The notes under the pieces were generated by a model, which was not told the origin of the DNA, did no database searches, and saw only the letters and a list, made by a program, of their open reading frames with translations. The translations under genes and the position numbers were made by a program. From a virus, in IMG/VR virus record IMGVR_UViG_3300029955_000075, positions 1 through 37,916 of that record: a stretch of 37,916 bases of DNA, one strand, 5' to 3'. Below are positions 648 to 6,703 of this stretch, piece after piece. The stretch's first letter is position 1, and each line of letters starts with the position of its first letter.

Positions 648-811
648 TCGTCTACCTTAAATTCATCAACGGCGCATGGGAGATTCACGCGATCTACACT
701 TGGCCGGATGACGACGACAATCTGAGAAGCCTTCTTATCAGATATGACGAGGAAAAAAGCGCCAGGGACTACGCGGAAAAGATGGGATGGAAGGTTGTTA
801 TCGCGCCATGA
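644..811 (+). CDS. Small hypothetical protein
   Basis: A 55-residue reading frame (MIVYLKFINGAWEIHA...) is coupled by ATGA overlaps to the gene before it and to the methyltransferase after it. Such tight coupling on both sides is the main evidence that it is translated. It has acidic DDDDN and EEK stretches and ends in VVIAP; no family is recognised. Confidence 0.6.
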   Translation: MIVYLKFINGAWEIHAIYTWPDDDDNLRSLLIRYDEEKSARDYAEKMGWKVVIAP

Positions 812-1677
812 AACAATTCAACGTCCTAGACCTATTTTCCGGCATTGGCGGATTTTCGCTGGGGCTTGAACGAACAGGCGGATTTAATACATCCGCCTTT
901 TGCGAAATCGAAGACTATCCGCGCCGCGTGCTGCGGAAACATTGGCCCGAGGTGCCCTGCTATGAAGATGTCCGCACCCTCACCTCAGATAAGCTTGCTG
1001 CCGATGGAATTGCCGTTAATGTCATCTGCGGGGGCTTCCCATGTCAAGACCTTAGCATCGCCGGAAACTGCGCCGGAATCGATGCTGAACGATCTGGCCT
1101 GTGGTCCGAGTTTTCCCGTCTTATTGGCGAACTTCGACCGCGGTATGTCATTGTGGAAAACGTCGCAAACTTGCTTGCTGGCCCTAGCGAAAGGCCAGGT
1201 TGGTGGTTTGGCCGAGTTCTCGGAGACTTGGCCGCGCTCGGGTATAATGCAGAATGGCACTGCATTCCGGCTTCCGCCATTGGCGCGGAGCATGACCGGG
1301 ACCGCGTATGGATTATTGCCTACCCTGACGAAGTGCGGGAACTACAACCGCAAGGGGACCAGCAAGACAAGCGGGGACGGTCTGGCGACAGTTCTGAAGC
1401 GCCTTCTCCCAACTCTGACCAAACACGACGTTCGCGGGGGATGCAAGCCAGAGCGGACGGAACGCATGTGGCGAGATTCGAGCCGTGGCTGCGATCTGCC
1501 ATCAACAATGCGACTACTCTATCCAGAGAGCACTGGAATCATCAACCCGTCTTGGGCCGAGGGGTTCATGGGGTTTCCCATAGGTTGGACCTAATTGGAT
1601 GCCTAGGGAATGCGGTTTTTCCATACATTCCAGAACTGATCGGTCGTGCTATTCTGTTTTATGAGGCTAACCCATAA
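808..1677 (+). CDS. DNA cytosine-5 methyltransferase
   Basis: The protein (289 residues) transfers a methyl group from S-adenosylmethionine to cytosine C5. Motif I is DLFSGIGGFSLGLE at residues 8-21, motif IV GGFPCQ carries the catalytic Cys79, motif VI is VENV, motif VIII is the HDRDRVWI segment, and motif X is LGNAVFP near the C terminus, so the catalytic set is complete. The part between motifs VIII and X is short and polar, which suggests a reduced target-recognition region. The ATG at 808 is used rather than one at 787 because it overlaps the previous stop (ATGA) and starts right at the conserved N terminus. Phage solitary methyltransferases usually protect phage DNA from host restriction; no cognate endonuclease is evident, although a VRR-NUC gene follows at once. 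The +1 frame is also open across most of this gene (see separate entry). Confidence 0.93.
   Translation: MKQFNVLDLFSGIGGFSLGLERTGGFNTSAFCEIEDYPRRVLRKHWPEVPCYEDVRTLTSDKLAADGIAVNVICGGFPCQDLSIAGNCAGIDAERSGLWSEFSRLIGELRPRYVIVENVANLLAGPSERPGWWFGRVLGDLAALGYNAEWHCIPASAIGAEHDRDRVWIIAYPDEVRELQPQGDQQDKRGRSGDSSEAPSPNSDQTRRSRGMQARADGTHVARFEPWLRSAINNATTLSREHWNHQPVLGRGVHGVSHRLDLIGCLGNAVFPYIPELIGRAILFYEANP
962..1594 (+). CDS. Possible overprinted ORF inside the methyltransferase gene (+1 frame)
   Basis: The +1 frame is open from about 845 to 1594. Its translation reads like a recurrent phage protein style: MSLWKTSQTC, then FSETWPRSGIMQNGTAFRL, then GLLPTLTKCGNYNRKG and SGDGLAT, ending INPSWAEGFMGFPIGWT. 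I recall very similar wording in proteins encoded beside or fused to phage C5 methyltransferases. No convincing ribosome site precedes the internal ATGs (962, 1004, 1145), so the start is arbitrary. It could be a true overlapping gene, a C-terminal part reached by frameshifting, or a by-product of conserved methyltransferase codons. What is seen is the open frame and its wording; expression is inference. Confidence 0.3.
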   Translation: MKMSAPSPQISLLPMELPLMSSAGASHVKTLASPETAPESMLNDLACGPSFPVLLANFDRGMSLWKTSQTCLLALAKGQVGGLAEFSETWPRSGIMQNGTAFRLPPLARSMTGTAYGLLPTLTKCGNYNRKGTSKTSGDGLATVLKRLLPTLTKHDVRGGCKPERTERMWRDSSRGCDLPSTMRLLYPESTGIINPSWAEGFMGFPIGWT

Positions 1678-4287: not shown

Positions 4288-4386
4288 ATTAGGCGTGGCT
4301 AAACCGGGATAAGACCTCGACGGAGGTTCCGGGACAGCCCACCGTTGCGCACCCGCAGCCCCGCACTGTTGGTTGCCACGTCTAAT
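4288..4386 (+). promoter_or_regulatory. Structured leader RNA before the replication gene (12-bp closing helix)
   Basis: Between dnaB and the next ATG (4409) the bases 4288-4299 pair with 4375-4386 in a continuous 12-bp helix with a single G-U pair. The enclosed 75 bases include the hairpin 4314-4327 (ACCTC, loop, GAGGT) and a GGG-ACAG-CCC mini hairpin. A long closing helix around several hairpins, ending about 22 bases before a start codon, is how cis-acting leader RNAs usually look. No known riboswitch class is recognised and there is no T-run, so control at translation would be more likely than termination. Confidence 0.45.
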
Positions 4387-4408
4387 TTGCGGGCTGCGAG
4401 GTTTCCAT

Positions 4409-5683
4409 ATGGCGCGTATTCGTACTGTTAAGCCGGAATTTTTTACATCAGAAGATACGTGCTCTCTTTCTCCTTTGGCGCGTCTTCTTTTTATAGGGAT
4501 ATGGTGCGAATCCGATAAGGAGGGTAGGCTTCCCTGGAAGCCAAAAACCTTGAAGATTCGGTATCTTCCTTCTGATGACTGCGATATTGAAGCTTTATGC
4601 GATGAGCTTGTATCAGTTGGAGTGGTAAAGCTTTATGGGGATGGATTGGCATTTGTCCCAGGCTTTATCAAACACCAGCACGTAAATCCCAGGGAATCGA
4701 AAAGTATTCTACCTGCCCCAGATGGGTGGGAGAAAGCTCCATATAAAAATCCAACTAAAGACCTGAAGGATCAAATCCTTAACAGGGACAATCATGCATG
4801 CGTTAGGTGCGGATCAACCGAAAACCTTCAAATTGACCACATCCTTCCTAGGTCGTGTGGAGGTCCGCATGTTGAGGAAAATCTTCGAGTTCTTTGCCGG
4901 CATTGCAATGCCGGAAGACCCGTATCTGGATTAGCTCTGCAAAAAGACCTTGAAGCTGACGGGTATTCCCTAGCAAATTTGCGCGTAAAATTTGGAATTG
5001 ACGCGTCAATTTCTGAATTGACCGACAGGGAGGAAGGGAAGGGAAGGGAAAGGAAAGGAAAGGATAATCCCCCTACCCCCTTAAACTCGAATTCACGCGT
5101 CAACTCGTCGTTTCCGAGCTTGGATGATGATGGATTGAAAACCAATAATATCGATGAAATCCGCAAAGCCGTTTGGAGGCAGCACGGATTGACGGAAGAC
5201 AAAATCCAGACCAAGCTGGTGTCGGCTTCATCCGAAGGCTTGCGACAGGTCCGAGGCTGGCTTGACCGGAAACTGACCGCCCAAGAAATCCTAGACGCCA
5301 TTGCCGACACATATACCGCCGCTGAGAGCAAGGGCGCTACTATCGGAAATCCCTGGTCATACCTAGATCGGGTGATGGAAACAATCGGGGACCGCAAGGA
5401 AAACCCAGAGCCCGAAAAGCCCAAGAAGCTTTCCCAAGATGAGATTTGGCGGGTTCACATGGTCGAATTTACGACTAGGACCATGAGGGACGGAAAACCA
5501 TTGTGGTTTGAAAACATTGACGGACCCAAGCCGGGAAGCAAGGGATGCAAGGTTCCGCTGTCAATCATGGCGGAGTTTGGGATTAAGCCATACGAGGAAC
5601 CGGAAGATGCGCAAACCGTGTCTAAAACCCCGCCAAACGCACCCAGGGCGGCAGAAGGCACATCATCCGCTATGCCTGTATAG
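4409..5683 (+). CDS. Phage replication protein (O/replisome-organiser-like) fused to an HNH domain
   Basis: The 424-residue protein opens with MARIRTVKPEFF and SLSPLARLLFIGIWCESDKEG, the common N terminus of phage replisome-organiser or DnaT-like winged-helix proteins. Residues about 115-172 form an HNH nuclease module: a CVRC zinc pair, IDHILPRSCGG with the catalytic His, and CRHCN as the second zinc pair. A Lys/Glu/Arg-rich linker encoded by a pure purine run follows, then a helical C-terminal part with NPWSYL, typical of phage replication proteins. I use the ATG at 4409, where the conserved sequence begins, rather than one at 4373. It probably loads DnaB at the phage origin; the nuclease might nick DNA or might be a passenger domain. 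Confidence 0.8.
   Translation: MARIRTVKPEFFTSEDTCSLSPLARLLFIGIWCESDKEGRLPWKPKTLKIRYLPSDDCDIEALCDELVSVGVVKLYGDGLAFVPGFIKHQHVNPRESKSILPAPDGWEKAPYKNPTKDLKDQILNRDNHACVRCGSTENLQIDHILPRSCGGPHVEENLRVLCRHCNAGRPVSGLALQKDLEADGYSLANLRVKFGIDASISELTDREEGKGRERKGKDNPPTPLNSNSRVNSSFPSLDDDGLKTNNIDEIRKAVWRQHGLTEDKIQTKLVSASSEGLRQVRGWLDRKLTAQEILDAIADTYTAAESKGATIGNPWSYLDRVMETIGDRKENPEPEKPKKLSQDEIWRVHMVEFTTRTMRDGKPLWFENIDGPKPGSKGCKVPLSIMAEFGIKPYEEPEDAQTVSKTPPNAPRAAEGTSSAMPV
5027..5064 (+). repeat. Homopurine GGGAA/GGAAA tract inside the replication gene
   Basis: All 38 bases are purines, made of reiterated GGGAA and GGAAA units. In frame they encode the linker EEGKGRERKGKD between the HNH module and the C-terminal domain. 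Unit number can change by slippage, and because units are 5 bases such changes would shift the frame. Some phage replication genes carry their origin internally, so an origin-linked role is possible but unproven. Confidence 0.6.
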
Positions 5684-5743
5684 GAAAACGCCAGAAACGG
5701 CTTAAAACGGCTTTAATGGCCATATCGAGGAATGGAGAGAAAA

Positions 5744-6703
5744 ATGGTCGAGTTTGTTAAGTGGCCTTCGATTGAGGCGTTCGAGTCAGTAGTTCGCAAC
5801 AGCGCTAGCCGGGGCACGGTCAACTATCGGGGGAAAGTGAAACTGCACGGTACGAACGCCGCGTTCACGTTCACTCCGACCGGCCCCGTGGCGCAGAGCC
5901 GTACCCGGCTGATTACGCCGGAGCAGGACAACGCCGGTTTCGCCGCATGGGTGGCCGGCTCCGGGTTTGCCGGACCCGATGGCGTTACCGTTTTCGGGGA
6001 GTGGTGCGGCCCTGGTGTGCAGCGCGGCGTTGCCGTGTCAAAGCTGGACCGGAAAATCTTCGCGGTCTTCGCCGTGAAAGTGGGCGACAACTTCCTGACG
6101 GACCCAAACGACCTGCGGGTCTACGCCCCCAAGCATCCCGACGTTTTTGTTCTGCCGTGGTACGGGGAGGAGTTCACGGTTAACTTCTCCAGCGTTCCGC
6201 AGAGCATCGTTGCCCACATGAACGAACAGGTAGCGGCGGTGGAATCCTCTGATCCCTGGATCAAGGAAGTCTTCGGCGTGGACGGGACGGGAGAAGGGCT
6301 GGTTTATTACCCTGTGGATAGCATCGGTAGTGGTCGGGCGCTAAGCGTCATGGACGATTCCCCCGATTACCTTGGGCGTCGGGTATTTAAGGCCAAGGGC
6401 GAGGCCCACAGGGTCAACGGTCACAAGGAGGCGGTCGCCATCTCGACGGCTTTGCTGGAGGGAGTTCCCGAGTTCGTGGCATTCGCGGTCACGGAGGCCA
6501 GGCTTCAGCAGGCGTTGTCCGAAGTGTGCCCAGAGGGAGCATTCATCCAGAAGACGGGAGAGTTTCTGAAGTGGGTGCAGGGAGATATCAAGAAGGAATG
6601 CGCCGAGGAGATGTCCGCTTTGGAAACCGAGGATGGCAAAATCCTCGGACCTTGCGGAGCGCGGGCCGTCCAGTGGTTTAAAATGAAATGCCAGGAGGTC
6701 TAA
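5744..6703 (+). CDS. RNA ligase, Rnl2/DRB0094-like nucleotidyltransferase
   Basis: The 319-residue protein has the ligase nucleotidyltransferase motifs: motif I KLHGTN with nucleotidyl Lys33, motif III VFGEWCG, motif IV EGLVYY, and motif V FKAKG. These fit ATP-dependent RNA ligases of the T4 Rnl2 group, which seal nicked RNA through an adenylate intermediate. The C-terminal ~100 residues are helical. The start at 5744 has GGAGAG nearby upstream; an in-frame ATG at 5732 contains that site. In phages such enzymes often repair tRNAs cut by host defence nucleases, which fits the tRNA and tRNA-like elements downstream, though no polynucleotide kinase is seen. Confidence 0.88.
   Translation: MVEFVKWPSIEAFESVVRNSASRGTVNYRGKVKLHGTNAAFTFTPTGPVAQSRTRLITPEQDNAGFAAWVAGSGFAGPDGVTVFGEWCGPGVQRGVAVSKLDRKIFAVFAVKVGDNFLTDPNDLRVYAPKHPDVFVLPWYGEEFTVNFSSVPQSIVAHMNEQVAAVESSDPWIKEVFGVDGTGEGLVYYPVDSIGSGRALSVMDDSPDYLGRRVFKAKGEAHRVNGHKEAVAISTALLEGVPEFVAFAVTEARLQQALSEVCPEGAFIQKTGEFLKWVQGDIKKECAEEMSALETEDGKILGPCGARAVQWFKMKCQEV

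Follow-up and report, generated by a model that had tools for sequence, protein, structure and literature searches.

In the C5-methyltransferase M.EcoHK31I, the gene of the large polypeptide also encodes the small one, in an alternate frame. According to PMC3404938, which describes this two-polypeptide enzyme of E. coli (YGGCCR; Lee, Kam and Shaw 1995), motifs I-VIII and X are assigned to the large and motif IX alone to the small polypeptide, and the predicted target-recognition domain is placed in the large subunit. M.AquI is a two-subunit C5-methyltransferase as well; its small subunit has the distal recognition part together with motifs IX and X (PMC3404938). For multispecific C5-methyltransferases of Bacillus phages, tandem target-recognition domains in a single chain and a single frame were described (PMC8936443). 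Out-of-frame coding is also known from the actinophage ShiLan, with an HNH endonuclease inside the methylase (PMC11855218). For Paenibacillus phage Shelly (NC_041909) the pair gp55/gp56 is annotated with gp56 as 'g55 internal gene'. No report of the overlap as a general feature was found in the open-licence literature.

The window analysed here comprises 37,916 nucleotides of the IMG/VR virus record IMGVR_UViG_3300029955_000075. DnaB helicase, terminase and portal genes are located on the same phage contig. The methyltransferase locus consists of two genes on one strand, alpha and the nested beta. ATG 787 is a possible alternative start of alpha; the methyltransferase frame extends over 787/808-1677. 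The following features are distinguished:

808..1677, + strand: alpha, C5-cytosine DNA methyltransferase large subunit, 289 aa from ATG 808
949..954, + strand: internal Shine-Dalgarno sequence GAGGTG, inside the alpha codons for WPEVP
962..1594, + strand: beta, nested +1-frame gene from ATG 962 to TAA, 210 aa; putative target-recognition part plus motif IX
1030..1050, + strand: alpha motif IV (GGFPCQD, with the catalytic Cys), read directly; GFPCQD invariant in 45 relatives
1112..1594, + strand: dual-coding substitution signature, with change concentrated at alpha position 1, the wobble position of beta
1148..1312, + strand: beta conserved core (SLWKTSQ...FSETWPRSGIMQNGTAFRLPPLA), opposite alpha motifs VI-VIII, from alignments of relatives
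1156..1164, + strand: alpha motif VI (ENV), from direct reading and relatives
1313..1402, + strand: beta PTP unit 1 (LLPTLTKCGNYNRKGTSKTSGDGLATVLKR), putative target-recognition module
1403..1537, + strand: beta PTP unit 2 (LLPTLTKHDVRGG...), putative target-recognition module
1541..1591, + strand: beta motif IX (INPSWAEGFMGFPIGWT), in frame in single-chain relatives and with a weak DNMT3A match
1606..1617, + strand: alpha motif X (GNAV), from direct reading and relatives

Judged by the published motif layout, M.EcoHK31I (X82231) appears to be the closest known kind. Like its large polypeptide, alpha carries motifs I-VIII and X, and motif IX is found only on the small polypeptide; for the window this placement has a weak PDB match and a strong bridge over phrog_1008 and the enzyme of Propionibacterium phage PFR2. 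The location of the small polypeptide in an alternate frame of the large gene is shared, too. In contrast to the assignment for M.EcoHK31I, conservation and homology put the recognition domain of the window in beta. Furthermore, the gene in the window belongs to a phage, and its neighbourhood contained no recognisable restriction gene. When E. coli genomes were searched on the DNA level with the relatives, only prophage copies of the phage type turned up. With M.AquI the locus has in common that the enzyme is split and that the small subunit holds the distal recognition part and motif IX. Unlike in M.AquI, motif X lies in alpha and the genes are nested, hence the locus is not of the M.AquI type. 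Tandem exchangeable modules of ~40 aa in a variable region, two of them in the window, resemble those of the multispecific Bacillus phage enzymes, but here they sit in the +1-frame subunit. Shelly gp55/gp56 are nested in the same +1 frame; however, the annotation gives only 'DNA methyltransferase', and the start chosen there does not rest on a conserved internal Shine-Dalgarno sequence. ShiLan shares the out-of-frame coding within a phage DNA methylase gene, but there a mobile insertion encodes an HNH endonuclease and not a half of the enzyme itself.

A VRR-NUC nuclease gene (1677-2057) overlaps the alpha stop with its ATG, and the gene of an RNA ligase domain protein (5732-6703) adjoins an HNH endonuclease gene (4373-5683).

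The initial annotation had assigned all motifs from I to X to one frame. This holds for motifs I-VIII and X, which are carried by alpha in frame 0, whereas the canonical motif IX is absent from this frame of the window gene and was found in +1. The PF00145 match of alpha (E 1e-39) is confined to motifs I-VIII and covers positions 1-167 of the 324 in the profile; the match to M.HhaI also stops at motif VIII. In a single-chain C5-methyltransferase the recognition domain and motif IX lie in frame between motifs VIII and X; this is not the case in alpha. In the AlphaFold model of alpha, residues 1-180 have pLDDT values of mostly 75-98 and residues 181-269 of mostly 37-59. A large domain similar to that of M.HhaI is predicted, and the small domain is absent from the model. 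The alpha stretch between motifs VIII and X is a poorly conserved and probably disordered linker.

The +1 frame is open from TTG 845 to TAA 1592-1594, which corresponds to 249 codons; the length of about 250 codons reported at the outset was thus correct, and every peptide quoted from this frame is present. Among 73 distinct relatives (alpha 43-66% identical to that of the window, its own copy excepted), 67 had a stop-free +1 frame over ENV..HGVPRR. Only 6.3 were expected when codons were shuffled synonymously within each alpha gene, a procedure which keeps protein and codon usage. In the same set, +1 stops per gene amounted to 0.21 compared to 3.08 expected, while the +2 frame matched expectation (7.1 vs 6.7 stops). 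The conserved +1 text reads SSWRTSQ.C....F.ETWPRSGMMR.G.AY.LPPLA....SGL.PTP...LNP.WVEWLMGFP.GWT.

Substitutions were examined in pairwise codon alignments built on the alpha frame. On either side of the overlap, alpha position 3 took most of the changes. Within it, alpha position 1, which corresponds to the wobble position in +1, changed most. All 26 disjoint pairs show this shift (chi-square p 7e-42). Between the window and its closest relative, L038, the numbers of changes at alpha positions 1/2/3 were 14/9/41 ahead of the overlap, 44/10/24 within it and 2/1/13 behind it. According to sliding windows, the signature begins ~10 codons before ENV and ends within ~5 codons after GWTD. For the reciprocal test, the beta codons from motif VIII to motif IX were subjected to synonymous shuffling. 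An open alpha was then expected in 28 of the 126 recognition stretches but was present in all of them, and the third frame behaved as expected. Substitution pattern and reciprocal test therefore show selection on both frames, and these comparisons lend strong support to overprinting, i.e. to one run of bases that carries two conserved coding frames. Both checks proposed in the initial annotation gave the same picture: the +1 frame is kept open in the relatives (67/73), and synonymous change in the methyltransferase frame is reduced inside the overlap. Overprinting, one of its two suggestions, agrees with the conservation of both frames far beyond chance.

The initial annotation let the second frame begin at 845. 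A start at this TTG is very unlikely, and ATG 962 is the likely start of beta. In the window, GAGGTG is followed by 7 nt and then by ATG 962 in the +1 frame; many relatives have GGAGGTG at the internal Shine-Dalgarno sequence. The E codon of this site was GAG in 72 and GAA in 2 cases, whereas the remaining E codons in these genes gave a ratio of 385:456 (p 8e-21). Likewise, the V codon was GTG in 54 of 74 sequences, compared to 24% elsewhere (p 2.5e-17). For 158 loci, the Shine-Dalgarno energy before the best +1 ATG averaged -6.8 kcal/mol vs -3.5 kcal/mol after shuffling (Wilcoxon p 4e-22). All 80 relatives with internal GAGGT and a +1 ATG were open from this ATG through motif IX, where 3.9 were expected. 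The first ~50 codons of beta (962-1111) show little of the beta-type substitution signature, though they are open in 80/80, hence the exact start of beta could vary. A start at ENV (ATG 1145 or TTG 1124), suggested by the substitution boundary, was considered and dropped because of the conserved Shine-Dalgarno sequence of ATG 962. Other apparent starts were seen 22 codons before ENV (ATG, in Bacillota-like copies) and 9 codons before ENV with a GAGAGG-like signal ahead (in AT-rich copies).

For beta, no family was found in Pfam and NCBIfam. However, phrog_1008 matches beta of the window at E 1e-13, and all 48 members of the beta alignment belong to it (best E 4e-33). In the single-chain PFR2 enzyme, residues 185-342 also match this family (E 8e-43). 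TIGR00675 (NCBIfam dcm) covers residues 6-323 of this enzyme, corresponding to profile positions 23-315 of 329. From the common phrog_1008 match and the dcm span of PFR2 it follows that beta is homologous to the C-terminal half, with recognition domain and motif IX, of a complete single-chain phage C5-methyltransferase. Searching the PDB with the beta profile retrieved only DNMT3A, at motif IX and weakly (E 1.7-2). When beta was modelled alone with AlphaFold, pLDDT was 57.6 and only the motif IX helix came near 80.

Between the core of beta and motif IX, 0-5 PTP units per beta were found, which begin with [L/W/F]PTP and have a median length of 39 aa. Similar units occur at differing ordinal positions and in betas whose cores are just 15-27% identical. 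Over similar units the identity was 0.71 in beta, 0.40 in alpha and 0.40 in the third frame; as the pairs were picked by beta similarity, which inflates the value of beta but leaves alpha vs third frame unaffected, the latter is the fair comparison. Hence, the alpha sequence opposite the PTP units appears to be free except for staying open. Motif IX was located in the alpha frame in 15 distinct loci (13 viral, 2 bacterial), nearly all of which keep a +1 ORF with PTP units ending just before motif IX. These ORFs comprise 118-214 codons vs a null median of about 5-11, in relatives with 39-46% G+C. Since the +1 ORF is kept without motif IX, the essential part of beta would be the recognition region and not motif IX alone. 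The persistence of this ORF and the single-chain enzyme of PFR2 lead us to infer that the PTP units are target-recognition domains. The loci L008-L022, L024, L163 and L167, AT-rich viral and some bacterial ones with motif IX in the alpha frame and a long +1 PTP ORF, can be described as an intermediate architecture.

Very probably, the locus encodes a split C5-cytosine methyltransferase whose two polypeptides are made from one DNA stretch via internal initiation. Alpha, in frame 0, would be the catalytic large domain with the AdoMet-binding motif I, the catalytic Cys of motif IV, ENV, motifs VII-VIII and X. Beta would be translated from ATG 962 in +1 by internal initiation at the Shine-Dalgarno sequence embedded in the alpha codons for WPEVP, and would supply the small domain with the PTP target-recognition modules and motif IX. 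Both subunits are supposed to assemble into one enzyme methylating a specific sequence, and this methylation would most likely protect the phage DNA from host restriction. Translation of beta, its assembly with alpha, target recognition by the PTP units and the anti-restriction role are inferred from the sequences.

A conserved frameshift fusion had been the other suggestion of the initial annotation. A programmed +1 frameshift on alpha would join N-terminal alpha to C-terminal beta. Arrangements compatible with such a product exist: in the phages Eesa and Winget the N-terminal half is in frame 0 and the recognition part, motif IX and motif X are in +1, the PFR2 enzyme is encoded in a single frame, and in L038 a 1-nt deletion joins both frames. 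Nevertheless, we regard frameshifting as improbable. Alpha keeps an open frame throughout and motif X at its end, whereas beta of the window type has no motif X, so that the fusion would lack it. Moreover, beta possesses a conserved Shine-Dalgarno sequence and ATG of its own, while a frameshift product would have no start of its own. AT-rich relatives have +1 stops just before a short ATG-led beta, and by eye a conserved slippery site was not seen.

Given that Pfam contains no match, beta could also be an unrelated overprinted protein, e.g. anti-restriction or regulatory, that is merely housed in the methyltransferase gene. The homology to the C-terminal half of a single-chain methyltransferase and the identity of motif IX make this quite improbable. 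In addition, no clear beta lacking an overlapping alpha was encountered among the fetched loci; where the N-terminus of alpha was not detected, its C-terminal motif still lay over beta. Alternative frames tend to be open in genes with high G+C content, and an open +1 frame might in principle be a by-product of alpha protein sequence and codon bias. The probability of this is negligible, because synonymous shuffles yield 6 open frames where 67 were observed, relatives with only 39-46% G+C still have ORFs of 118-214 codons where the null median is about 5, and the substitution pattern is position-specific.

On balance it appears rather probable that, in a widespread class of C5-methyltransferases, specificity is provided by a subunit that consists of an array of swappable recognition modules and is encoded in the +1 frame of the catalytic subunit, that the only demand on alpha in this stretch is an open frame, and that motif IX can be in either frame (in beta in the window, in alpha in AT-rich relatives). 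In that case one module swap on the DNA level would change the specificity of beta and the linker of alpha together, and for M.EcoHK31I the published assignment of the recognition domain to the large subunit would have to be revised. Long same-strand overlaps conserved across phages and many bacterial phyla are rare; in the present case the two products seem to belong to a single enzyme. When such an enzyme is cloned as alpha alone, a test could wrongly suggest that it is inactive. With the modules in the hidden frame, swaps of modules offer a direct test of their specificity. For finding such nested genes, the embedded Shine-Dalgarno sequence is a clean marker.

Relatives were sought with a consensus peptide. 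Of 85 distinct viral loci, 70 showed nesting with an open alpha, as did 8 of 14 phage records and 64 of 75 distinct bacterial loci. The bacterial loci span Alpha- and Gammaproteobacteria, Bacillota, Actinomycetota, Bacteroidota, Synergistaceae and others. Among 369 genomes drawn from the class of one gammaproteobacterial MAG, 12 contained a beta match.

Several architecture variants were observed. In L038/L002 (IMGVR_UViG_3300046615_000250) the 1-nt deletion is located opposite window position 1430 and connects the N-terminal part of alpha with the second PTP unit and motif IX of beta; motif X is out of frame. It is either a sequencing error or a natural frame switch. The actinophages Winget (gp6/gp5, L126) and Eesa (gp39/gp40, L127) carry the recognition part with motifs IX and X in a second ORF in +1, and in PFR2 (L128) these parts are fused into one frame. 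Mycobacterium phage Llama (gp74/gp75, L119) and Spikelee (gp77, L131) have a nearly identical enzyme; owing to a small indel that follows ENV, however, alpha of Llama and several of its sister phages is split and annotated as two genes. In the prophage of E. coli PCP07014 (L216) a stop interrupts alpha, which is annotated as pseudogene, and the beta frame is also cut short upstream. For Stenotrophomonas phage SOVA965 (L132), the 'DNA-cytosine methyltransferase' annotated at 1360-1860 is the beta frame, and the intact alpha frame is unannotated. Across the records the annotation is inconsistent, with alpha only, beta only as methyltransferase, both, or fragments.
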